Source of the DNA: Bacteroidetes bacterium GWF2_38_335
Lineage (GTDB): Bacteria; Bacteroidota; Bacteroidia; Bacteroidales; GWF2-38-335
Direction: 5' to 3'
Assembly (NCBI GenBank): GCA_001769535.1
Contig: MEOH01000007.1
Location: forward strand, 67,675 to 131,674
Length of the DNA: 64,000 bases
Shown here: positions 3,912 to 63,938 of the stretch, in pieces
Numbering within the stretch: the first letter of the stretch is position 1
How the letters are laid out: the number at the start of each line of letters is the position of its first letter
Program-made: the position numbers and the translations under genes
The notes under the pieces: generated by a model
Databases searched by the model: none
What the model was told of the DNA's origin: nothing
The model's input: the letters and a program-made list of their open reading frames with translations, nothing else

Positions 3912-5906
3912 ATGAAGGGAATAGCAAAATTTCATTTTTTTTTCACGAACAGGATTGTTGTCTTTGTTCTGGTTATATTATTGTCATTTACAGTCTGTTC
4001 ACAAAGTCTGAATAAAATTGTTAAAGTAGCCGATGATGCTTTTGAAAGCGGAAATTATTATGGGGCAATGGTTTCCTATAAAAAGGCTCTTAACATGAGC
4101 ACGGTTCCTAAAATTGCCTATTCATACGCCCTTGCCTGCATGTACAACCATGATTATAAAAATGCGAAAATCTGGTTCAGATATGTGGTTTCCAACGACA
4201 AGGATAATTACCCGCTTTCCATGTTTTATCTTGCTGAAGTTGAGAAAAGCATGGGCGATTACCAACAGGCTATGGAAAGCTACAGAAAATTTCTTAAAAA
4301 AGGTGAGGATAAAAATTCATACCATGCAAAAAAAGCAGAACATGAGTTGATTGCCTGTGAAAATGCTTTTTATCTGAAACTCAATCCCGTTGGCTTTGAT
4401 ATTAAAAAAATCAGCACCAATGTGAATACTGTTTACAGTGAATATGGAATTTCTGATATTGGCGATTCAGTGTTGCTGTTTTCATCTTTCAGACCGGATG
4501 ATAAGAATGCTCAGAACTTTTTCAGTACGCTTTTTAAATCACAGTATCAGGAAGATGTTTTTCAGAAATGGGAAGTCCTTGATTCCACAATAAATAAAAG
4601 TAATTATCATGCTGCAAACCCTGCATTTTCAAACAAAACAGGAACATTGTATTTCTGTTTGAGTGAGATGGTTGACGGCAAGGCATTATCAGGTATTTAC
4701 CAGTCGGTTTATTCTGAGGGCCAATGGACTAATCCGGCCCGATTGCCAGAACCGGTGAATATTCCGGGTACAGCATCACTTCAGCCATCGGTTGCCGAGC
4801 TTCCCGATAAGGAGTTGCTGCTTTTTGTTTCAAACAGGGAAGGGGGAATCGGCAAATTGGATATCTGGTATTGTGAAATCAAAAATGACGGAACTTTTGG
4901 TCCGGCTTTTAATATGGCCGCCAATACCAATGATATGGATGAATCTACCAGGTATTTTGTTGAGATGAAATCTGCAGTCAATACTATTGATGATGACATT
5001 ACCCCTTTTTACGATCCACTTGATTCGACTTTGTATTTTTCATCTACCTGGCATAATAACATGGGCGGATTTGATATTTTCAAAATCAAGGGAGATTTCA
5101 AAAAATGGGGCGATCCGATGAATATGGGCTATCCACTGAATACCAGTGATAATGAACTGTATTATTATATTACTTCGAAGCACAGCAGAGCTTATTTTAC
5201 TTCAAACAGACCTGAATCTGATTTTTTTAGTAACGAGCGTTGTTGCAATGATATTTATTATTATGACCTGCCAAAAATTATTAATGAGGAAGAGGAGCAG
5301 GAAAAGGTTCTTGTGGTTCTTGAAAATGAATTGAAAAAGCTGATTCCGCTTACCTTGTATTTTCATAACGACGAGCCCAATCCCCGCACCCGCGACACGG
5401 TAACTCAACTTAATTATGAAACTACTTTTAACAGCTATGTGGCTATGGTGGAGGAATATAAGACTGAATATTCGGCCGGAGTGAAAAAAAATATGAAAGA
5501 GGAAGCTGTCCAAAATATTGAAAATTTTTTCAAGGAAGAAGTGAATAAGGGATATTCTGACCTTACAAATTTTAGTCTGCTTCTTGAACAATTACTCCCC
5601 GAAGGCAGGATAATAGAGTTAACCATTAAAGGTTATGCAAGTCCCCTGCATGCCACAGATTACAACGTAAATCTCTCAAAACGAAGAATCAACAGTCTGG
5701 TCAATTACTACAAAGAATATAAAAACGGATTGTTTATCCAATATATTGATAATGGTCAACTTTCGTTTACCGAGGAAGCGTATGGTGAAGATGAAGCAGC
5801 TGTTGAAATTTCTGATGATCTCAAAGATACCCGCAATTCTGTTTACAGTCCGGCTGCCGCATTCGAACGAAAAATCAGGCTTATTGCTGTGGATGTTACC
5901 AGGTAG
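3912..5906 (+). CDS. TPR / WD40-like beta-propeller / OmpA-like outer-membrane protein (PorE-like)
   Basis: A 664-residue exported protein. After a hydrophobic N-terminal segment (about residues 12-32) come TPR-like helices (~35-140). Next is a PD40/WD40-like propeller with blades such as LLFVSNREGGIGKLDIWYCE and LYFSSTWHNNMGGFDIF (~170-450). A Glu-rich linker leads to a C-terminal OmpA-like peptidoglycan-binding domain (NVNLSKRRINSLVNYY, ~565-664). TPR-PD40-OmpA order is that of PorE of the type IX secretion system and related envelope anchors. The window has at least three T9SS cargo proteins, which fits, but PorE orthology cannot be shown from sequence reading alone. It is likely co-transcribed with the gene 12 nt upstream. 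Confidence 0.75.
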   Translation: MKGIAKFHFFFTNRIVVFVLVILLSFTVCSQSLNKIVKVADDAFESGNYYGAMVSYKKALNMSTVPKIAYSYALACMYNHDYKNAKIWFRYVVSNDKDNYPLSMFYLAEVEKSMGDYQQAMESYRKFLKKGEDKNSYHAKKAEHELIACENAFYLKLNPVGFDIKKISTNVNTVYSEYGISDIGDSVLLFSSFRPDDKNAQNFFSTLFKSQYQEDVFQKWEVLDSTINKSNYHAANPAFSNKTGTLYFCLSEMVDGKALSGIYQSVYSEGQWTNPARLPEPVNIPGTASLQPSVAELPDKELLLFVSNREGGIGKLDIWYCEIKNDGTFGPAFNMAANTNDMDESTRYFVEMKSAVNTIDDDITPFYDPLDSTLYFSSTWHNNMGGFDIFKIKGDFKKWGDPMNMGYPLNTSDNELYYYITSKHSRAYFTSNRPESDFFSNERCCNDIYYYDLPKIINEEEEQEKVLVVLENELKKLIPLTLYFHNDEPNPRTRDTVTQLNYETTFNSYVAMVEEYKTEYSAGVKKNMKEEAVQNIENFFKEEVNKGYSDLTNFSLLLEQLLPEGRIIELTIKGYASPLHATDYNVNLSKRRINSLVNYYKEYKNGLFIQYIDNGQLSFTEEAYGEDEAAVEISDDLKDTRNSVYSPAAAFERKIRLIAVDVTR

Positions 5907-6090
5907 GATGGTAAGATTGTAAGACGGTAGAATGATACGACGGTATGGCCCGGCTTGAAAGCAGGGGATGAATTGAGTCGGCCTTACAGGCCTGGATTAT
6001 GGGAGATAAAACTTCATCGACTTTACAAACTTTGGACTTTAAGGACTTTGGACTATAAGGACTTTCAACTTTATAAACTTTCAACTATCC
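5907..6090. repeat. Degenerate short tandem repeats
   Basis: The gap after the OmpA-like gene has two repeat clusters. One contains GACGGTA/GATGGTA-type units (about 5908-5947). The other alternates GGACTTT and AACTTTCA-like units (about 6018-6090), for example TTTGGACTTTAAGGACTTTGG. No gene is present. The second cluster abuts the promoter of the metal-exporter gene. Confidence 0.7.
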
Positions 6091-6109
6091 AAACTTTTTC
6101 CTACTTTTG
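6079..6109 (+). promoter_or_regulatory. Bacteroidota-type promoter (-33/-7)
   Basis: A near-consensus -33 (TTTC, 6079-6082) is followed after 19 nt by a perfect -7 box TACTTTTG (6102-6109). The ATG of the metal-exporter gene is at 6132, so the leader would be about 18 nt. Confidence 0.7.
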
Positions 6110-6131
6110 TTATTTAAAGCCATTCTGAATA

Positions 6132-7286
6132 ATGCTGATTGATGTAATTAAAAATACCCTGATAATTACCGGTTTTGTGCTGGTAATGATGTTGATTATT
6201 GAATATGTAAATGTTCAGACAAAAGGCAAATGGAGCATACCGCTGAAGAAAAACCCCATACTTCAGATTCTGGTTGCTACAATTCTCGGATTGACTCCGG
6301 GTTGCCTGGGTACTTATACCGTAGTATCATTATATACACACAACTTAATGAGCTTCGGCGCTCTTATGGCGGCCATGATCGCTACAACCGGTGATGAAGC
6401 CTTTGTCATGTTTTCAGTGATGCCCGAAACGGCTGTAAAACTGAATATTATATTGTTGGTACTAGCTGTTTTAACAGGATTTGTTTTTCATTATTTTATA
6501 AAGAAAAAGAATTATAGAATAACAGGTGAAAAACACATGGAGATTCATGATCATGAGTTTTCGTGCAAGTGCTATGACCGAAAAAAAATTATTCCTCAGT
6601 TAAAAGGTATATCAGTTCAAAGAGGGATTTTAATCACCGCTCTTGTTCTTTTCATTTTAGCTGTTTCTACAGGAAATATTGCACATGACCACAACCATTC
6701 AATAATCGGAATGCCCGGTACTGAGAAGGTTGCGAATGATGATCACAGCAGTCACGAATACGAAGCAGAAGCAAGTAAAGATGAAAACCATGATCATGGA
6801 AACTTTCTGGTTCCAATTTTTAACTGGAACTGGTTTTTGATTGTTTTTCTTGGTGTCTTGGGGATTGCATTGTTTATTGTTTCAACCGTTCCCGATCATT
6901 TCCTTCATGAACATCTTTGGGGGCATATTGTGAAGAAACATTTTCTGAAAATTTTCCTTTGGACTTTTGGAGCTTTGCTGCTCATTACCTGGTCCATGGA
7001 ATATGTCGATCTTGCCGAACTCATTAAAACACAGCATATTTATGTCTTGCTGATTGCCATTTTAATCGGTGTGATTCCCGAATCAGGCCCACACCTCGTT
7101 TTTATCAGTCTTTTTTTGTACAGCGGATTGCCATTCAGTATCCTGATGGCCAATTCAGTTGTGCAGGACGGACATGGTGCATTGCCTTTGTTCGCTGAAT
7201 CCAAACGCAGTTTTCTCTACGTTAAGTTGATTAAAATTGGTATGGCTCTTATTCTGGGATTTGCCGGTTTTTATTTTGGCTTTTAG
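6132..7286 (+). CDS. Putative 10-TM heavy-metal/manganese exporter (ArsP_2 type)
   Basis: A 384-residue polytopic membrane protein with two homologous halves. Each half has a Gly/Pro motif before a loop: TPGCLGTYTVVSLY in the first, IPESGPHLVFISLF in the second. This is the pattern of the putative 10-TM metal exporters (PF11449, often named putative manganese transporter). The central region between the halves is rich in His, Asp and Glu (HDHEF, HDHNHS, DDHSSHEYE, ENHDHGNF; about residues 135-225), consistent with metal binding in a soluble loop. It has its own promoter and stands alone. The transported ion cannot be read from the sequence. Confidence 0.75.
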   Translation: MLIDVIKNTLIITGFVLVMMLIIEYVNVQTKGKWSIPLKKNPILQILVATILGLTPGCLGTYTVVSLYTHNLMSFGALMAAMIATTGDEAFVMFSVMPETAVKLNIILLVLAVLTGFVFHYFIKKKNYRITGEKHMEIHDHEFSCKCYDRKKIIPQLKGISVQRGILITALVLFILAVSTGNIAHDHNHSIIGMPGTEKVANDDHSSHEYEAEASKDENHDHGNFLVPIFNWNWFLIVFLGVLGIALFIVSTVPDHFLHEHLWGHIVKKHFLKIFLWTFGALLLITWSMEYVDLAELIKTQHIYVLLIAILIGVIPESGPHLVFISLFLYSGLPFSILMANSVVQDGHGALPLFAESKRSFLYVKLIKIGMALILGFAGFYFGF

Positions 7287-7775
7287 TATTTAGTAGCTGG
7301 TATCAAGTATCAAGTAGCGAGTATCAGACATCAATATAAGTTGGTTTTGCTACAGTGGTTTTTTCAGTGGTGGCGTAGAATCTGGTGGCTTCTGAAAGCG
7401 AAAAATTAAAGGATCTCTCGTGCTTTTCAATAATAATCTGGACTATAAAATTTTGTTTAAATAGTTTTTTGAATTATACTTCCTGGTATTCTATCTATAT
7501 AATAATAAGAGTTTAATGAACGAAATGGAATATATTATTTATCTGGGAATTCGCCAGAAAGACATTATTCATCTTTCCCGATAGCCATTTAATTAAACCT
7601 GCTTGTTAAGTAAATCAATCCGAAGAATTCATTTTATGAAACAAAAAGTTTAATTATAAACGTAATTTAAAATTGCCTGAAAGGCATAAATAATAATAGC
7701 CCCGGGCTATATATCAATTTGTTATCTGTTTATCGGCAGGTCATTTAATTAATCATGAAGATTTTTGTAAAAACA
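7287..7775. other. 489-base gap with repeats and palindromes
   Basis: No gene is visible between the convergent metal exporter and the large secreted protein. Right after the exporter stop, 7287-7332 holds degenerate AGTAGC/AAGTATC units like those at 23088. Two palindromes follow further on: TGCCT-gaa-AGGCA (7674-7686) and ATAGCCC-c-GGGCTAT (7696-7710). The pair resembles dispersed palindromic repeats common in Bacteroidota gaps and may act as a bidirectional transcription stop. The middle part is AT-rich with nothing recognised. Confidence 0.6.
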
Positions 7776-10700
7776 TTACTTGTTAAATATTTTCTCCACA
7801 ACCACATGATCACCGCAGATAACAACAAGATTATATATGGCCGACGGTTTATCCGAAAGATCAATTATTGCATATCCGGCCGGATCATACTTGCCCGAAT
7901 GCATTAATACTTTGCCAAGCTGGTCGGTCAGATAATAATAAATATGGTTTTCTGAACATCCGTGCGAAATCAGTGAGAAATTGTTATCTCCGTTGGGGAG
8001 CAGTTCTATGCTGAATTGTTCCTCTTCTCCGCATGTAACGGCCTTTAATGACAACATCTCGGTTTTTCCGTCATAATCGGTCTGCCATAACCTGTAATAA
8101 GTTACCAAAGGCGATACTTCAAAATCAGGATATTCATAATTTATTGTTGCATCTGAATTTCCACTTCCTGAAATTTTTGCCAGATGTTCAAATGTAATTC
8201 CATCGTAGCTCTTTTCAATGGTAAAATAATCATTGTCTCTTTCGCTGCAGGTTGTCCATTCGAGCTTAACACTGTTTGTTTCACACGATGCTGTAAATGC
8301 TTTCAGTGTCACGGGCAGCAGACTGCCCTGACTGCCTAAAGTAACCTTTGTATGGCTTAGGTTGTTATTGATTGTTGTCGCAAAAGCTGTGTTGGCCAAT
8401 GCATCGTTGATTGTTGAAAGCGGCGCCATATAAACTGGTCCGGGGACTCCTCCCCAGGTCATCTGCACTTCCTGGAACATAACCAGTGTGCCGTCGGTAT
8501 GTCCGTTTAATTCACTGTCGAAATAGGTCAAGGTGAAATCGCAGGGAATAACTGCCTTTGCACCCGGTACAATGTCATAATACCTCAGAATGCTTGTGTT
8601 TCCTGCATAACTCCCTGTCCCGTTTAACTCCTCATGTCCGCGTGTAATTGTAGTATTACCAAGAGGAGCAGATGGTGTCACAAACAATCCCAGTCCGGCA
8701 ACATTACCCGTAGGGTTCATCCTTGTTGCTTTTATGGTACCAGGACCAGGTAATCCGCTGCCATTTGTGGCAGTAATTCTGTTTGTGGCATTTTCACTCA
8801 CCAGTATTCCGGTTGTTCCCAAATCAATGTGGTTATCTTCCAGATCAATATCTCCGTTTAATAAAGTCAGGTTTCCATTTACAGTTATATTTGTTTCTAT
8901 TTTCATTCCGGAACCTGAATTATTCAAGGTCAGGTTGAAAAATGAAGAGGTGTTTGTTCCCAAAACCGACTGTATTGATGAACCGGTAAAATAAAAGGTT
9001 CCTGTAACACTGGTAAAAGTGGCACTGTTACTAAAATCACCATTCAGATTTATATCTCCGCCATTTTGGTATAGCATTCCTCCTGAAACCAGGAATATAT
9101 CATTGTCAACAAAAAGGGTTCCGCCTGCTTCGATACGTAAATCAGAATTGTTAACGGTAAGATCTTTGTTGTTGTTAATGGTCAGGGCTCCGCCGCTTAA
9201 TATTTCGATACTGTTACATATACCTGTTGTTCCATTGATGGTGGTATTAACTGAAAAGATTGGATAATGGCTGCATCCGCCAGGGATTGTGACATCCGTT
9301 GAAGAAACGGGAATGTATCCGCCACCCCAGTTTGAGCAATTATACCAGTCAGAACTTATTGTACCTGCCCATGTCCCGCTGGGCACCAGCTCATTTGCCG
9401 GATTAACATCAGCGGTAACGATGTCATAGCAAACGCCCACATCGTCTGAAATTGTAACTAAATAATCTCCTGCAGGTAATCCTGTTATCATAGCAGTTGT
9501 TGCGCCAGTTTCCCACAAATAACTGTATGTGCCTGACCCGCCTGTTGCTGAAGCTGTGGCTGTTCCTGCAGCATCGTCATAGCATACAACCATACCATCG
9601 TTAACCAGTACAGAACCAATTATTCCGTTTACAGTAAAGTCCAGACTGTTGCCAATTACCGAATTGCCGCAGGCATCATCTACCTGACCGCTGAAACTGA
9701 GTGTATAAGTACCTCCGGCAATAAGCTGTGTATTTAGTGTCATCAGATATTCACGGTCTGAGGCCGAACCACCGGTTCCCTGAATGGATATTACGTTGTA
9801 TGAGCCACCCGGACCGGTAACTGCAAAGTCATCGCTGTTTACTGATGCGGTATCTACAGGTTCGTTGAACCAAAATGTAATTTGTTCTTCTCCGCAGGTT
9901 GGAGAATTTACTATGGTGTCAAGTTCGGGTGGATTTACATCAACGATAACACCCGAAGCCATACTGAAATCTATGAAGTAGCCGTATTGTGTTGAGCTGT
10001 AATTGCTCACGTTGATAACATATATTTCTCCTTCCTGTACAGGAATGGCTGCATTAAACGGAGTACCGCCGCCATCCTGACTGGTGAATGATGTTGAACC
10101 GTCGGGGCCTGTAGTGCCTGCTGTTCCTGAATAATTGCAACTTACTTCCAGTGAAGGGTCTGAGTAAATGTCAGAACAGGAAGCTGTAGTGAGGTTATAA
10201 ACAGCCCAATCATAATCATCGGCCGTGTCATTTGGCGTGATTGTAAACATCAGGTTCCCGTCCTGCTGAACAGTGAAAATGTACCAGACATCATTTCTTT
10301 CACCGGCAGACAGGCATGAAGAACTGCCGTTAATTTCACCGGGAATATTTCCTGTGCCCGAATAAGATTCAGTTGTACTGTATGAATCACCGCAGATCGG
10401 AATGGCTCCCAGGCAGTCCTGTTCATTGGGAGTTACGGGGTGCGGATCGCAATCGGCTGCAGTATATGTGTAATCTGCAGGGGCAGATCCGTCATTGCCA
10501 TCGGTGTAAACCAGATTGCCGTAACTGTCATATAGAGAATAACTGTTTTCATAACCCCAGCTTCCAGCCGTATAATCAATGAAAATGTCACCGCCTGTAT
10601 AAACAGGAATATTATAACAAACCGGACCTGCGCCGGTGCTTAAGGTCCATGTTCCGACAGAAACGCCATCTGAATAAACATGAATATTGCCACCGTTCCA

Positions 10701-56427: not shown

Positions 56428-56847
56428 ATGGAAAACACTGAACAAACAAACAAAGGTCAGGGACTTGATTTCAAATCAATGGACACTAAAACAAAAGCAG
56501 TTTTGATTATTGCTGCTGCTGGTATAGTTGGTTGCTTATTGCCATTAGTTTCTGTTATGGGCTATTCAGTCAGCTTACTTGATGCAGGCGGATTAGGAAT
56601 CGTAATTTTTATTGGTTTTATCTATCTGATAGCTTCAACATTATTTGGAGATAAAATGAATATGCCGGCTGAACAAGTAGCAAAAATTAACAAAGGTGCC
56701 ATCATTGGTATTTCAGTTTTGTGGGTTATTGATATTATCAGAATCCCGGGATTTGCTTTTGGAATGCTCGGAATTGGATTTTATGTTGTAACCATTGCCC
56801 TAGGACTTCTTGTTTTACTGTATCTTGATGTGATCAAGTTAAAATAG
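56428..56847 (+). CDS. Small four-helix membrane protein (paralogue 1)
   Basis: A 139-residue protein. A short polar N-terminus (MENTEQTNKGQGLDFKSMD) leads to four hydrophobic helices. The first contains AAAGIVGCLLPLVS; then LDAGGLGIVIFIGFIYLIAS; the last is IGFYVVTIALGLLVLLY. It is clearly paralogous to the protein at 57092: both have LDF/VDF, MD-KTK, G-I-x-C-x-LPLV and GIGFY. A terminator follows it, so the pair are separate units. No family or function recognised. Confidence 0.75.
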   Translation: MENTEQTNKGQGLDFKSMDTKTKAVLIIAAAGIVGCLLPLVSVMGYSVSLLDAGGLGIVIFIGFIYLIASTLFGDKMNMPAEQVAKINKGAIIGISVLWVIDIIRIPGFAFGMLGIGFYVVTIALGLLVLLYLDVIKLK

Positions 56848-56952: not shown

Positions 56953-57053
56953 CCCTCGACAAAGAAATTTGTCGGGGTAAATGGGATTAATACTTCGCCC
57001 CTTGGGGCGAATAGATATAAATGTTTTATTGATACTCGCTGCTCTGCTGCGAG
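56953..57053. repeat. Cluster of three palindromes between the paralogues
   Basis: Three hairpins lie in 100 bases: CGACAAA-gaaa-TTTGTCG (56957-56974), TTCGCCCC-tt-GGGGCGAA (56994-57011), and an imperfect CTCGC..GCGAG (57035-57053). They lie in the leader of paralogue 2. They resemble dispersed palindromic repeats of Bacteroidota and are probably a composite small repeat, perhaps mobile. Confidence 0.65.
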
Positions 57054-57091
57054 GTAGTTCATTTGTTTATTTACTCAAAAAATTAAATAAT

Positions 57092-57550
57092 ATGGAAAAC
57101 ACACAACCCACACCAAACAAACCAATAGTTGATTTTAACGCAATGGATGGCAAAACCAAAGTGATGCTGGGCGCATCGGTTCTCGGAATCATTTCTTGCT
57201 TTTTACCTCTTGTAAAAATAAATTTTTTCCTGAAATTATCTGCCAGTCTGTTCGACGGAGGCGGTTTCGGCTATGTTATTTTCATTTGCTTTCTTGGCGT
57301 TCTTGCCATGTCTCTGTTCGGCTCTGCTTTCTCAAATTCCAAACAATTAATGAACATTTTTGTCATTACTTTGGGTGCCTTATGGGGATTTCTCAACACA
57401 ATTCTTCTCCTGATCACATGGACATCCGGAGTATCACCCGAACCGGTTAAGCAATCAATATTCGATTTTATCGGCATCGGATTTTATCTCGCCAGCATAA
57501 GCATTATTGTGATGGTATTTGCGCAATTTGCCGGCCCGAAGAATAATTAG
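57092..57550 (+). CDS. Small four-helix membrane protein (paralogue 2)
   Basis: A 152-residue protein starting MENTQPTPNKPIVDFNAMDG, with four hydrophobic helices and the same motifs as the protein at 56428, including FLPLV and a C-terminal GIGFY. The ATG at 57092 matches the paralogue start; an upstream in-frame start at 56981 would run through the palindrome cluster. Probably a tandem duplication with divergence. Function unknown. Confidence 0.75.
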   Translation: MENTQPTPNKPIVDFNAMDGKTKVMLGASVLGIISCFLPLVKINFFLKLSASLFDGGGFGYVIFICFLGVLAMSLFGSAFSNSKQLMNIFVITLGALWGFLNTILLLITWTSGVSPEPVKQSIFDFIGIGFYLASISIIVMVFAQFAGPKNN

Positions 57551-58566: not shown

Positions 58567-59565
58567 CTAATCAATAATTAAATCCTGCGCATCAGCATCA
58601 TTCGAATGGGTATATGATTTTTCAAAGGTAAATTCAACTGTTGCCCCCCGTTTAAAAAAACTCTCAAACAAATCGGTAATCATAAACAAAGGGAATGTTC
58701 CTGCAAAAACTGCCTTTTGAAATAACAGATTGAATTTTGAGTATTCTTTGATATATTCTTTGTTGCCTTTCAGACTTTCAAAAAGTACCTCACGTTTTTT
58801 ATAAAACATGTTCAGTGTACTTTGTATGAATCCGTAGGGGTTTTGTTCGGAGGACAAATATTTTGTTTTCAAAACTTTGTATCCCCTGGTTTCCATTAAT
58901 TTGATAAAATCTTCCGGGGCAAAAAAGAACAAATGCCTTGGGGGATCAAGATGCAGCCATTTTCCTTTAAAAAGTTCGCTTTGCAAACCGGCAATGTTTG
59001 GAAATGAAATAACCAGCGCGCCGCCCGGACAAAGCACTTCGTCGATTGTGTCGAGCATCTCGACAGGGTGCGACAAGTGCTCAAATACATGAAACATTGT
59101 TATGGCCTGAAAGTTGTTTTTTGGAAAATCACCTTTTTCGAGCATTCCGACTTTAAGATTCAGTCCTTCAACTCTTTTTGCCCTGGCTGCCGAATTACCA
59201 TCCAACTCTGTTCCGTAAATATTAAAATCGCCATATTTTTTCAGGAATCCCAAAAACCGACCGTTTCCGCAGCCGATATCCAATACATTTTCATTTTTTC
59301 TTATAAATCGACTCACATATTTTGCCCTGCGTTTTCTGAAATAGTCCAATACATTTTCCACTTTTGATGAACTGAATTTTTCCTCCTGCTCACCATAATA
59401 TGATGAATCATAGGCCTGATTCAGTCGCTGTTCATCGGGACGAGGTGCCAGAAAATATGCGTGGCAGACATTGCATTGGTGAATTTCATAATGGTTTCCA
59501 AAAACATCCGTTGTCGGGTAAAGTGCCCTGCTGTCTTGTCTTCCGCAATATCCGCAAATGTCCAT
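58567..59565 (-). CDS. Class I SAM methyltransferase with N-terminal zinc ribbon
   Basis: A 332-residue methyltransferase. The N-terminus has two Cys pairs (CGYCGRQ, CNVCHAYF) forming a zinc-ribbon. The SAM-binding loop is VLDIGCGNGRFLGFL, with further motifs FHVFEHLSHPVEMLD and VISFPNIAGLQSELF. The layout is that of the SAM methyltransferases found in surface-polysaccharide and lipid pathways in Bacteroidota. The C-terminal ~80 residues include a hydrophobic stretch. Substrate unknown. Confidence 0.82.
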   Translation of the reverse strand: MDICGYCGRQDSRALYPTTDVFGNHYEIHQCNVCHAYFLAPRPDEQRLNQAYDSSYYGEQEEKFSSSKVENVLDYFRKRRAKYVSRFIRKNENVLDIGCGNGRFLGFLKKYGDFNIYGTELDGNSAARAKRVEGLNLKVGMLEKGDFPKNNFQAITMFHVFEHLSHPVEMLDTIDEVLCPGGALVISFPNIAGLQSELFKGKWLHLDPPRHLFFFAPEDFIKLMETRGYKVLKTKYLSSEQNPYGFIQSTLNMFYKKREVLFESLKGNKEYIKEYSKFNLLFQKAVFAGTFPLFMITDLFESFFKRGATVEFTFEKSYTHSNDADAQDLIID

Positions 59566-59750: not shown

Positions 59751-59758
59751 TATATTTG
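59751..59758 (+). promoter_or_regulatory. -7 promoter box of the deformylase gene
   Basis: A perfect TAnnTTTG box (TATATTTG), 27 nt before the ATG at 59786. Confidence 0.6.
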
Positions 59759-59785: not shown

Positions 59786-60403
59786 ATGAAATATCTTGCT
59801 TTTTTATTTTTAATTATAACCATTTTTGGATGCGCCAAAGAAGAAGTTCCCTTCTATGGAGATTCGACCGTTAATGGTTTTCGTCCTTTTACCACCAACG
59901 AAAAGGCAATAATTTACAGTGGCGGATCAAGTGATATTATGCCCCTATATACCATTTTTGATTATGATGATTCTTTGGTTTTAAGGAAGCAGTGTATTGA
60001 TGTAAAACCCGACTCGCTTGATGCGGATTTATTATATCTTATAAGCAGAATGTATGCTACAGTTAACGATCCGGCGAATCCGGGTGTCGGACTGGCAGCT
60101 CCGCAAGTTGGAATCAACCGGAATATTATCTGGGTAATGCGTGATGATCTTGCAGGTGATCCTTTTCAGGTTTGCATCAATCCGAAAATTACTGATGTAA
60201 CACAAACCATGACCGGCAGCAATGAAGGATGTTTATCCATTCCTGGCGAAAGCCATGTAATTCAGCGCTACAGAGCAATAGTGGTAGAGTTTTACGATCT
60301 CTCAGGTAACCTGCACCGCGAAGTGATAGAAGGTTACACAGCCAAAATATTCCAACACGAAATTGACCATCTCAACGCCATTTTGTACATCGACCACATG
60401 TAA
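59786..60403 (+). CDS. Lipoprotein-type peptide deformylase
   Basis: A 205-residue protein with an N-terminal lipoprotein signal (MKYLAFLFLIITIFGC, Cys16) followed by a complete peptide deformylase domain. Motif 1 is GVGLAAPQVG (100-109), motif 2 is EGCLSIP (Cys149) and motif 3 is QHEIDH (His191, Glu192, His195). All metal and catalytic residues are present. Ordinary deformylases are cytoplasmic and remove formyl from nascent chains; this one is predicted to be anchored outside the cytoplasm, where its substrate is unclear. An extra ~45 residues precede the domain. It is probably not the housekeeping def. Confidence 0.82.
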   Translation: MKYLAFLFLIITIFGCAKEEVPFYGDSTVNGFRPFTTNEKAIIYSGGSSDIMPLYTIFDYDDSLVLRKQCIDVKPDSLDADLLYLISRMYATVNDPANPGVGLAAPQVGINRNIIWVMRDDLAGDPFQVCINPKITDVTQTMTGSNEGCLSIPGESHVIQRYRAIVVEFYDLSGNLHREVIEGYTAKIFQHEIDHLNAILYIDHM

Positions 60404-60586: not shown

Positions 60587-61732
60587 ATGATGAAACTACT
60601 TCTCATTCCCTTAATATTATTATATTTTTCAGCTTTTTCCCAAGGCGACTACAAATCATTTGTCAATGATAAAGACAATGAATATTACCAATCCCAGTCC
60701 TTTTATCCCGTTAAGGATTTCAATATTGAAGCCATTTGCAAAGGCACAAAAGCCAAAAATGTAATTCTTTTTATTGGCGACGGAATGGGTACTTCTCAGG
60801 TTTATGCAGCGCTCACTGCCAACGGCGGATCGCTTTACATGACCTCATTGAAATTCAGCGGCTTTTCAAAAACAAACTCAGGCAGCGATTATGTAACCGA
60901 TTCAGGAGCAGGCGGAACAGCCATTGCCTGCGGAAAAAAAACATATAACTATGCCATAGGGGTTGATATGGATACGGTTCCCATGGTTTCGATTCTTGAA
61001 CTGGCTGAAAAAAAAGGATTGTCAACAGGAATGGTTGCTACAGCTGCAATTACCCACGCCACTCCGGCCTCTTTCATGGCCCACAACCGCGACCGCAACA
61101 ACTATGAGGAAATTGCCCTGGATTTTCTGAAAACCGACATTGACATTTTCATCGGAGGGGGACGTGATCATTTTGCATCCCGCAAGGATAAACGAAACCT
61201 TTTAGATGAACTGGCTAAAAAAGGTTACCAGGTTTGCGATTCCTTAAATACATCAATTTCGAAGGATAAAGTTGCAGTTTTTACAGCATCCGGACATAAT
61301 CCCGAAGCAAAGTACCGAAAAAATATGCTGCCAATAGCTACCCAAAAAGCCATTGACCTTTTAAGCAAAAATAAAAACGGCTTTTTCCTAATGGTCGAAG
61401 GTTCACAGATTGACTGGGGCGGACATGACAATGACTTGCCTCAGGTCATTGAAGAAACTCTGGATATGGACAAAGCCCTGGCAGTAGCCCTCGAATTTGC
61501 CGAAAAAAACGGCGAAACTTTGATAATTGTCACTGCCGATCATGAATGTGGCGGATTATCTCTGAAAAACGGAAGTCTGGAAAAGGGAATTGTGGTTGCC
61601 GAATTTTCTACGCTCGATCATACATCTGTCATGGTGCCCGTCTTTGCCATTGGTCCGGGTGCCGAAAAATTCACCGGGGTTTATGAAAATACTTCGATTT
61701 TTGATAAGATGAAGGTGGCTTTGGGGTTGTAA
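60587..61732 (+). CDS. phoA: Exported alkaline phosphatase
   Basis: A 381-residue exported PhoA-type phosphatase with a signal peptide (ending AFSQ). Metal ligand Asp65 is in LFIGDGMGTSQ and the catalytic Ser106 in VTDSGAGGTAIACG. Later metal motifs are VEGSQIDWGGHDND and TADHECGGLS. It hydrolyses phosphomonoesters to release phosphate. Two ATGs open the gene. No Pho-box or phosphate-transport gene is visible nearby. Confidence 0.93.
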   Translation: MMKLLLIPLILLYFSAFSQGDYKSFVNDKDNEYYQSQSFYPVKDFNIEAICKGTKAKNVILFIGDGMGTSQVYAALTANGGSLYMTSLKFSGFSKTNSGSDYVTDSGAGGTAIACGKKTYNYAIGVDMDTVPMVSILELAEKKGLSTGMVATAAITHATPASFMAHNRDRNNYEEIALDFLKTDIDIFIGGGRDHFASRKDKRNLLDELAKKGYQVCDSLNTSISKDKVAVFTASGHNPEAKYRKNMLPIATQKAIDLLSKNKNGFFLMVEGSQIDWGGHDNDLPQVIEETLDMDKALAVALEFAEKNGETLIIVTADHECGGLSLKNGSLEKGIVVAEFSTLDHTSVMVPVFAIGPGAEKFTGVYENTSIFDKMKVALGL

Positions 61733-61955: not shown

Positions 61956-63938
61956 ATGAAAATTCTATTATTGTCAATAGCTTTGATTGTTTTATTAAAA
62001 GTTTCGGCCCAATCAAATTTTGAGATGATGTTCGATGTTACATCCTACAATGATTTAGGTGTGGATGTGATTCAAACCGCTGACGGTGGATATTTGGTTT
62101 TAGGAAAATACGATTCGAATTTTTCTATAATTAAAACAGATAGCTATGGTATCCAACAAAATGTTAAACTTTTTGATTGGATAAAACCGGTTTTCGTTTC
62201 AGATATTGAAAAATCAGCAGACAATGGGGCAGTTATTTGTGGGAAAATACTTACGGATACCTCAGGATACGATTTTTTTGTAATGAAAATCAATTCAGAA
62301 GGAGACTCACTTTGGTCAAAAGTTTATTATGGGGAGAATGATGAAAATGCTGTTAAAATAATTCGGACAGAAGATCTTGGGTATGTTATTGCTGGTTCTG
62401 ATCAGACTATTAATTTCAAAATAATAAAGACTGATTCTGATGGAAATGAGCTTTGGACATACAATGACGATAGTATAAATGTCAGTGATGTTTGTGTAGG
62501 TTCGGATGGAGGAATTGTAATAGTAGGGGGAGGGTATTATTACTGTTACCCGAAATTTGGAACAATAATGAAGATAAACGCCGCAGGTCCCTACCAATGG
62601 AGTCAAACTTTTTCAAACAGCAGTTCTACTTTATTAGAAGTTATGGTCTCAACGGTGACAAATACACAGGATAATGGTTTTATTATTTCGGTTTATTTTA
62701 ACGATGATGGGGTGCCTTCCAGCTATTATTATAAATTAGATTCAATTGGCAATACATTATTTACTAAAAGGGTTATTGCTGACCATATCTGGGTGTATGC
62801 TCCTCCAAATATTCCAATTGTTGATATCAATAGTTCATCTGATGGGAGCTATTATATAACAGGACATCGAAATTATCCGCTTAATTATTTCCAGAAATTT
62901 GATTCCTCTGATAAAATGATTTGGGAAAAAAGCATTGGAAATGGTAAATTTATTTTAACTGACGATAATTGCTTTGTCTTTATTGGCACTGAAGCTAATA
63001 TGATATATATTGCGAAAGCAGATGAGAATGGCAATGGTTGTTTTCAAGTGCAGGGTTCGTATGATATTGGTCTGGTTACCAATGATGAAACAACAGGTAA
63101 AAACAAAATAATTTGGACTCCCTCACCATTCATGGAGAAGTATCATTTGTACAGAAGTGATGGTAGTCTTGTGAAATCTGTTAATTCTGGTGAACCAACA
63201 GAAGTTCTTGATGAATTATCTGATCCAAATGAAGTTGTTGGTTATTATATTACAGTTGAAGACACATGCGGAAATCTAACATTTGATTTTGGTGACTATC
63301 CTGAATATTATATGCCGGTTTTTCAATGTGATTTTAATCTTCTTCTGGAAAAACCAATAACAAATACTTCAATTGGCTATGATCTTGATTGGAATAGCAT
63401 TTCAAATTATCATGATAACCCTATGTTCCCATATGGAAGTCCAATTATTGGCTATCGCATTTACAGGGGAATAAGTATAGATAACATGATATTAATTGAT
63501 TCAACCGATATAGAAACAGACTATTTGGATTTGATTGACACAACACAAAATTTGTATTACAGGATATCTGCAGTACTTCAAAACTATTGTACTTCATCTT
63601 TAGGAGAAACATTTAACGAAGCCTTTTCAAATATATGGCAAACACATGGTTCTGATATTAATAATGTCGTGATTGAAAAATATTGCATTGAAGTCTTTCC
63701 CAATCCTTTTGATTATTATTTCGTTGTTTCTTATGAATTATCTGAGAAAACAGACGTTGGTTTTGAAATTTATAACCAATCAGGACAGCTTATAAAAGCA
63801 ATTCCTTCAGAAAAGAAAAATCCTGGCATACATAAAACCAAACTGAACTTAAATGAGTCGAATTTGGAGCCGGGTGTTTACACTCTTAAGATAATCATTG
63901 GAGCAAAATTGATTTTCAGAAAACAGGTGAAAATATAA
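61956..63938 (+). CDS. Secreted protein with T9SS type-A sorting domain
   Basis: A 660-residue exported protein with a signal peptide (1-19, VSAQ). About 350 residues of propeller-like repeats follow (DVIQTADGGYLVLGKYDSNF, SVCVGSDGGIVIVGGG-type blades, each with an IIKTD/MKIN strand). Fibronectin-like segments (~370-560, KYHLYRSDGSLVKSV, YRIYRGISIDNM) come next. The C-terminal sorting domain runs from EVFPNPFDYYFVVSY to VYTLKIIIGAKLIFRKQVKI. It resembles the cargo protein at 14851 in layout. Function unknown. The last 62 bases of the window after it hold nothing recognised. Confidence 0.8.
   Translation: MKILLLSIALIVLLKVSAQSNFEMMFDVTSYNDLGVDVIQTADGGYLVLGKYDSNFSIIKTDSYGIQQNVKLFDWIKPVFVSDIEKSADNGAVICGKILTDTSGYDFFVMKINSEGDSLWSKVYYGENDENAVKIIRTEDLGYVIAGSDQTINFKIIKTDSDGNELWTYNDDSINVSDVCVGSDGGIVIVGGGYYYCYPKFGTIMKINAAGPYQWSQTFSNSSSTLLEVMVSTVTNTQDNGFIISVYFNDDGVPSSYYYKLDSIGNTLFTKRVIADHIWVYAPPNIPIVDINSSSDGSYYITGHRNYPLNYFQKFDSSDKMIWEKSIGNGKFILTDDNCFVFIGTEANMIYIAKADENGNGCFQVQGSYDIGLVTNDETTGKNKIIWTPSPFMEKYHLYRSDGSLVKSVNSGEPTEVLDELSDPNEVVGYYITVEDTCGNLTFDFGDYPEYYMPVFQCDFNLLLEKPITNTSIGYDLDWNSISNYHDNPMFPYGSPIIGYRIYRGISIDNMILIDSTDIETDYLDLIDTTQNLYYRISAVLQNYCTSSLGETFNEAFSNIWQTHGSDINNVVIEKYCIEVFPNPFDYYFVVSYELSEKTDVGFEIYNQSGQLIKAIPSEKKNPGIHKTKLNLNESNLEPGVYTLKIIIGAKLIFRKQVKI

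Follow-up and report, generated by a model that had tools for sequence, protein, structure and literature searches.

An exported deformylase gene is found in the window, a 64,000-nucleotide stretch of a contig from Bacteroidetes bacterium GWF2_38_335. The gene encodes a second peptide deformylase (PDF), and the protein is predicted to leave the cytoplasm as a lipoprotein. At the sequence level, four features are established: predicted export, an intact active site, membership in a clade of its own and, for the branch with an Asp metal ligand, evolutionary constraint. Outside the cytoplasm, the window protein may strip N-formyl-Met peptides of their formyl group and thereby make them available to peptidases. 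We judge the case for this function to be evenly balanced.

The gene and its product

The protein matches the Pep_deformylase profile (PF01327) over residues 56-205, with an E-value of 1.2e-39 and a score of 135.9 bits against a cut-off of 22.8. The motifs that define this family, GxGxAAxQ, EGCxS and HExDH, are all present (Table 1). The initial annotation described a complete deformylase with three intact motifs and a lipoprotein signal ending in Cys16, and the profile match and the lipobox bear out this description. Within motif 3, we take H191 and H195 to be metal ligands and E192 to be the catalytic residue. The protein narrowly exceeds the cut-offs of two NCBIfam deformylase models; for TIGR00079, it scores 106.3 bits, and the cut-off is 103.95. 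Because it passes two such models, automatic annotation would name the window protein a plain peptide deformylase.

Table 1. Features in and around the exported deformylase gene (window positions)
Feature	Position	Strand	Basis
CDS, predicted exported (lipoprotein) peptide deformylase; ORF of 205 aa, ATG at 59786, TAA at 60401-60403	59786..60403	+	ORF, Pfam and NCBIfam profiles
Predicted signal peptide, residues 1-15 (MKYLAFLFLIITIFG)	59786..59830	+	Core 3.16; signal conserved in family
Lipobox IFG-C; Cys16 is the predicted lipidated +1 residue	59822..59833	+	Sequence pattern
C-A-K-E-E-V, residues 16-21, fits C-X-K-(D/E)2-X	59831..59848	+	Sequence; motif from PMC5080379
Conserved segment F35-T36-x-x-E39-x-x-x-I43, 5' of deformylase domain	59888..59914	+	Alignment
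Internal ATG (Met52), rejected as start	59939..59941	+	Met in 49/78 members only
Motif 1 GVGLAAPQ, residues 100-107	60083..60106	+	Alignments
Stretch with clade-specific R119, D121 and P126, between motifs 1 and 2	60140..60163	+	Column comparison
Motif 2 EGCLS, residues 147-151, metal ligand Cys149	60224..60238	+	Alignments
Motif 3 HEIDH, residues 191-195	60356..60370	+	Alignments
Short C-terminal tail, 10 residues after HEIDH	60371..60400	+	Comparison with other PDFs
Alkaline phosphatase (PF00245), signal-like N-terminus, downstream	60587..61732	+	Profile match
SAM methyltransferase, upstream on the opposite strand, outside the system	58567..59565	-	

Predicted signal, lipobox and surface-export motif

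The N-terminus of the window protein reads MKYLAFLFLIITIFG followed by C, with a hydrophobic core that averages 3.16 over 10 residues. It fits the lipoprotein pattern, judged as a pattern test only, of an n-region with Lys, a hydrophobic core and a lipobox Cys, and the protein is predicted to be a lipoprotein lipidated at Cys16. Purpose-written sequence-pattern scripts were used for the lipobox and signal calls, both for the window protein and for the family.

Export is, by these predictions, a trait of the family, and lipidation is common among the exported deformylases. We gathered 83 different exported proteins (56 and 27 from two sets), of which 81 have a core hydrophobicity of at least 2.0; the remaining two have values of 1.98 and 1.92. 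The identical procedure gives a core of at least 2.0 in 4 of 95 other PDFs. For exported and other PDFs alike, the start with the best signal was chosen, and a GTG or TTG start is needed for the signal in 3 of the 56 members of the first set. The lipobox pattern is present in 60 of the 83, although a few cases (for example, L036 and L118) are doubtful, and the other 23 mostly resemble signal-peptidase-I signals ending in A/S-x-Q. One of the 58 proteins in a later set (L272) has no signal; its frame lies near the start of a contig, and it was then left out. A survey of deformylase signals in related genomes, which the initial annotation had envisaged, finds an exported-type paralogue in at least 13 of 98 relatives. 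An N-terminal signal is present in all 13 of the proteins read (in L015, only if translation begins at GTG), so the signal in the window protein is more than a chance feature.

The residues that begin at Cys16 fit C-X-K-(D/E)2-X, which was established as the optimal signal for lipoprotein export in Capnocytophaga (PMC5080379). On the strength of this motif, which was tested in that other genus, the window protein is predicted to be surface-exposed. The homologue from the same genus as the window has C-S-K-E-D-G, which likewise fits. The strict form C-x-K-(D/E)2 occurs in 4 of the 60 lipobox members only (the window protein, the same-genus homologue, L006 and L224). Surface exposure thus does not characterize the family and is predicted for the window's subgroup alone.

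Predicted surface exposure would also suit a host-directed enzyme that deformylates chemotactic formyl peptides and so evades host formyl-peptide receptors, and several relatives are MAGs with rumen, colon or rectum in their titles. However, isolates named for sediment or compost (Tamlana sedimentorum, Parapedobacter composti) also carry members, and the window has no known host link. We consider this explanation improbable for the window protein, and a host-directed role is unlikely as the general function of the family. Among the substrates offered by the initial annotation, host-directed signals are thus unlikely as a general role, and lipid-linked formyl groups gain no support from the analysis, but secreted formyl peptides come near to the explanation that we favor.

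The start codon

The signal would be an artifact of a misread start if the true protein began at Met52 and were a second cytoplasmic deformylase. Met52 adjoins the alignment column in which signal-less PDFs have their start Met, and it may be the ancestral start. However, in an alignment of the 78 exported members under 300 aa, this column has Leu, Phe, Tyr or Ile in 29, and residues upstream of it are retained (F35 in 48, E39 in 66 and I43 in 71). For the codons upstream of Met52, dS exceeds dN in six of the seven pairs compared; the L034-L037 pair is reversed, at 0.82 versus 0.73. Because Met52 is variable, upstream residues are kept and dN is mostly below dS, the full-length start is well supported. 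We therefore rule out Met52 as the start, and a misread start is hardly credible; a true internal start was one of two findings that, according to the initial annotation, would overturn its reading.

A housekeeping deformylase elsewhere in the genome

A Pfam search of the window's genome returns two deformylase matches, namely the window gene and a signal-less Def of 184 aa. The latter is encoded on another contig, directly behind ruvX (G000:C9:109340-109810). The initial annotation had reasoned that, if no other def existed, the window gene would be the housekeeping enzyme; the signal-less gene that it suggested seeking is present, adjoining ruvX.

A further def is likewise present in 19 of the 21 tested genomes that have an exported copy. 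The two exceptions, G001 (from the same genus as the window) and G027, also have no ruvX, which is present in 7 of 7 other genomes tested. In these two genomes, the locus of ruvX and def therefore probably falls in a gap of the assembly, and loss of an essential gene is the less likely cause. A housekeeping role for the window gene was ruled out, because the ruvX-adjacent Def holds that place and a further def accompanies most exported copies. The window protein also differs from housekeeping Def in that it carries a signal and lipobox and is not encoded beside ruvX. Thus, sequence comparisons support the view that the window gene encodes a deformylase additional to the housekeeping one and predicted to be exported.

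The exported clade and its distribution

In an unrooted tree obtained by a quick search, one branch (SH-aLRT 99) splits 54 exported PDF domains from 95 others, and the other rows were drawn from many phyla. Three near-identical Chryseobacterium rows were left out, and of 102 candidates for signal-less rows, 7 did not pass the motif pattern or length test and were also omitted. The simplest reading of this tree is that the exported form arose once in the history of Bacteroidota.

Exported deformylases are found in Flavobacteriaceae, Weeksellaceae and Sphingobacteriaceae, besides Bacteroidales. Named members among the matches listed include Tamlana, Aestuariibaculum, Leeuwenhoekiella, Paucihalobacter, Chryseobacterium, Epilithonimonas, Algoriella, Sphingobacterium, Parapedobacter, Dysgonomonas and rumen or gut MAGs. 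A lipoprotein-type exported deformylase is also found in a MAG labelled Deltaproteobacteria (L062:7893-8573, + strand; Myxococcota in the tree), and this member could reflect horizontal transfer or a binning error.

Frequencies were counted by profile E-value, and N-termini were read for up to 30 loci per search. The exported copy is present in 58 of 393 sampled Bacteroidales genomes (approximately 15%), 8 of 295 genomes in a class sample and 10 of 395 in a phylum sample, with the window genome included in each. In Bacteroidales, 59 genomes passed a threshold of 1e-40, and 11 passed in the phylum sample; G030 and G539, respectively, have signal-less proteins and were excluded. The family of genome G119 has the exported copy in 126 of 197 genomes and 10 of 33 genera, and the family of G351 has it in 39 of 201 genomes and 2 of 25 genera. 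From their tree positions beside named rows, these families should be Weeksellaceae and Sphingobacteriaceae. Exported copies are separated from the others by a wide E-value gap in the class sample (1.1e-56 to 2.3e-39) and the phylum sample (8.7e-66 to 6.5e-42), and by a narrower one in the Bacteroidales sample (5.2e-47, from a fragment, with the next genome's best at 3.4e-42). The patchy presence of the gene, as in the phylum sample, implies that its function is dispensable.

Active site, clade-specific residues and fold

The catalytic core of the exported proteins is that of other PDFs. G100, G102, A104, Q107, G148, L150, S151, R161, H191, E192, D194 and H195 are each at least 90% conserved in both the exported and the other rows. 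Because rows were selected by the patterns QHExDH and GxGxAxxQ, the conservation of those letters is in part built in; this does not apply to motif 2, R161 or the remaining columns. Two members missed by the pattern, L197 and L225, have EGCLS and QHEIDH when read by eye. Across the 83 members, motif 2 is EGCLS in 55, DGCLS in 12, EGDLS in 14, EHCLS in 1 and EACLS in 1.

An AF2 model of the window protein, made with an alignment of the window and 32 public loci, has a mean pLDDT of 92.1. It aligns with the actinonin-bound structure 6jf3 with a Z score of 23.4 and an rmsd of 1.2 Å over 144 residues (VIA-align), and the best 50 structural matches (Z 21.5-23.4) are all titled deformylases or Def. 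In the model, the fold and active site of the window protein are those of deformylases.

The presence of actinonin-bound PDFs among the best structural matches, together with the fact that the gene is a second copy and that most sampled genomes lack it, brings to mind a decoy or shield that would bind natural inhibitors of PDF (actinonin, for example) and so protect the essential enzyme in the cytoplasm. A decoy could do without the full set of catalytic residues, yet these are kept. Moreover, purifying selection on the Asp-ligand Chryseobacterium group (described later) points to catalysis, and stoichiometric titration of a diffusible drug would be inefficient. We regard a decoy as very improbable.

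Several residues distinguish the exported rows from the others. R119 is found in 53 of 54 exported rows (its overlap with the other PDF rows is 0.00), D121 in 54, P126 in 53 and T185 in 49. I103 is found in 52 of 54, and the window protein has Leu at this position. At position 145, Gly is present in 27 of the 54 exported rows and Ser in the window protein, versus Phe or Tyr in 52 of 95 others; position 187 is Val in 37 of 54, versus Arg in 88 of 95 others. These altered residues around the cleft could mean that the substrate is another one. Perhaps, then, the protein is an exported formamidase acting on formylated amino sugars of surface glycans, on some other formamide or on a non-formyl amide of the envelope, and the clade-specific cleft residues R119, D121, P126 and T185, with the frequent Gly145, are in keeping with this possibility. 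Against it, most members retain GVGxAAPQ, EGCLS, R161 and HExDH.

The C-terminal helix of PDF contacts the ribosome. After HExDH, the exported proteins have a median tail of 19 residues (20 or fewer in 47 of 83), versus a median of 41 in the other PDFs (20 or fewer in 4 of 95). Other Bacteroidota PDFs have tails with a median of 41 and a range of 28-54 (n = 60), versus 10 in the window protein. PDF is reported to bind near the ribosomal tunnel exit (PMC8185961), and the loss of most of the tail in exported PDFs is expected if ribosome contact no longer matters.

A change of metal ligand, fusions and tandem copies

Members from Chryseobacterium and Epilithonimonas have Asp in place of the Cys of EGCLS, and they account for the 14 EGDLS proteins noted earlier. 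In the family of G119, the ligand is Asp in 14 of 29 proteins read and Cys in 15, and in the family of G351, it is Asp in 0 of 29. EGDLS was observed at L052, L054-L057, L059, L060, L065, L120, L189-L195 and 14 of the loci L226-L254. Five close pairs, all in the Asp-ligand branch and none in the window's branch, have dN/dS ratios of 0.04-0.08, which indicates strong constraint on the Asp-branch genes. For the window pair, dS is saturated over the domain, and dN/dS is not usable.

In Escherichia coli PDF, the Cys ligand is reported to be oxidized when H2O2 attacks the iron (PMC10751367). An Asp ligand outside the reducing cytoplasm would possibly avoid H2O2-driven oxidation of Cys, and the change may be an adaptation to an oxidizing environment. 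No Cys-to-Asp deformylase is apparent by title among the open-licence literature matches listed. The natural change of ligand offers a ready test of what makes deformylases so sensitive to oxidation.

Several exported deformylases occur in larger proteins. In Sphingobacteriaceae-type genomes, the deformylase is fused behind DUF1684 in 24 of 28 proteins scanned; the fusion was noted at L117:1426-2658 (- strand) and among L255-L283. A haloarchaeal DUF1684 member has been grouped with thiol relay genes (PMC9426492). Tandem deformylase lipoproteins are found at L007:1495-2640 (- strand) and L222, in which domain 1 has lost catalytic letters (VQHAITH, QHHFDH) and domain 2 is intact. At L058:7935-9143 (+ strand), a flavin-reductase-like domain is C-terminal to the exported deformylase in one open frame, and this combination could be a true fusion or an assembly artifact.

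Genomic context and origin

When 550 ORFs from the window and from 36 loci were clustered by BLAST, no operon partner common across families was found. The downstream alkaline phosphatase gene is not beside the exported def in the same-genus genome G001, whose neighbors are different, and an operon partner as a functional link was rejected. The absence of a neighbor that recurs across families suits a stand-alone enzyme and fits peptide recycling; the neighborhood gives no positive link to peptide uptake. A promoter candidate, TATATTTG at 59751-59758, was also rejected, in that TANNTTTG occurs 66 times in the window versus 84 expected.

Among the loci listed, common neighbor blocks are found in Chryseobacterium and Epilithonimonas genomes, and an mreBCD-mrdA-rodA-like cluster precedes the exported deformylase gene in four Flavobacteriaceae loci. 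At L034, L035, L037 and L039 (approximately 4000-8650), the exported deformylase gene is directly 3' of a rodA-like gene, with genes named by eye. The position 3' of a rodA-like gene in four Flavobacteriaceae loci and the DUF1684 fusion in 24 of 28 Sphingobacteriaceae members scanned are two further points in favor of a formamidase that acts on another substrate. However, the rodA link occurs in a single lineage, and no neighbor family extends across lineages. Such a formamidase seems to us unlikely, and we retain N-formyl-Met peptides as the preferred substrate.

Two other observations concern the window. The adjoining genes at 56428-56847 and 56981-57550 encode similar small membrane proteins and are, by eye, a tandem duplicate. 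A protein of 660 aa with a type IX secretion C-terminal sorting domain (PF18962) is encoded at 61956-63938.

The exported gene is approximately 2.4 kb before the genome's other def at L051 (Dysgonomonas), approximately 2 kb before ruvX-def at L153, and beside a gene read by eye as ruvX at L156. These arrangements do no more than hint at an origin of the exported copy by tandem duplication of def. A mobile origin was rejected, because plasmid and phage deformylases are only distantly related: all 28 plasmid and 139 phage deformylase records are below 60% identity, and the best 20 of the 28 and best 10 of the 139 are at 31-41%.

Proposed function

In the mechanism that we propose, a def paralogue would have gained a Sec-type signal once in Bacteroidota and would now work in the envelope. 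Once translocated and cleaved by signal peptidase II, the protein would be lipidated at Cys16 and reside in the outer membrane, and the window's subgroup, given the fit of C-A-K-E-E-V to the export signal, would face outwards. The enzyme would hydrolyze the formamide of N-formyl-Met peptides, which might be fragments of the cell's own signal peptides or peptides from neighbors or dead cells. The freed alpha-amino group would then allow aminopeptidases and dipeptidyl peptidases to degrade and recycle a peptide that is otherwise blocked. The altered residues of the cleft, the patchy distribution of the gene and the want of a functional link from its neighbors weigh against this proposal.

Published observations are compatible with such substrates. 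Deformylation is incomplete, secreted microcin C peptide mostly keeps its formyl group (PMC4745127), and staphylococcal peptides are secreted with formyl-Met (PMC2951371). Incomplete deformylation and the release of formylated peptides imply that formyl peptides exist outside the cytoplasm. PDF is reported to accept free formyl-Met peptides with loose sequence demands, far more slowly than on the ribosome (PMC8185961). The assertion in the initial annotation that an exported deformylase must act on something other than formyl-Met peptides is not supported, because the catalytic core is kept, the fold matches that of deformylases and formyl peptides exist extracellularly.

A broader proposal is more tentative, and we are inclined to doubt it somewhat. 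One old family would perform dedicated extracytoplasmic deformylation in Bacteroidota, clearing or recycling formyl-Met peptides, and its metal site would have been re-engineered for an oxidizing setting, as in the Cys-to-Asp change with catalysis kept in Chryseobacterium and the DUF1684 fusion in Sphingobacterium.

Deformylation is taught as a co-translational, cytoplasmic reaction, and PDF is a drug target. Formyl-Met peptides have so far been discussed mainly as cytoplasmic intermediates or as signals to animal hosts. The exported branch, present in 126 of 197 genomes of one family and 58 of 393 Bacteroidales, suggests that some bacteria may remove formyl groups in the envelope. If so, this activity would explain how N-blocked formyl peptides are recycled, and it would be relevant to the amount of formyl peptide that host receptors encounter from gut Bacteroidota. 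Automatic annotation would, moreover, be giving a single name to two different proteins.

Comparison with known systems

The fold and probable chemistry of the window protein are already known, and the exported, mostly lipid-anchored clade, although widespread in Bacteroidota, is apparently undescribed. No description of an exported or lipoprotein deformylase was found in the accessible parts of the open-licence literature. The surface lipoproteins of Bacteroidota (Lauber et al. 2016, PMC5080379) resemble the window protein in their export signal, which C-A-K-E-E-V fits, but the accessible text of that study mentions no deformylase among them.

Housekeeping Def (PF01327, TIGR00079, EC 3.5.1.88) shares with the window protein the fold (Z up to 23.4), the three motifs, the metal ligands and the catalytic Glu. 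In contrast, the window protein has a signal, a lipobox, an N-terminal extension, a shorter tail and R119/D121/P126, and it belongs to a separate clade. The PDF of Synechococcus phage S-SSM7 (PDB 3uwa) is similar in its compact domain, with 34% identity and a Z score of 22.6 over 146 residues, but viral and phage PDFs are distant in sequence from the window protein, at less than 60% identity in all 139 phage records.

Organellar PDFs (plant PDF1B, Plasmodium PDF) share the PDF domain, and the alignment with PDF1B (3cpm) begins at residue 35 of the model. Organellar deformylases carry targeting presequences that direct them into organelles with formyl-Met translation. Those presequences lead to a compartment in which translation occurs, whereas the predicted signal of the window protein leads out of one.
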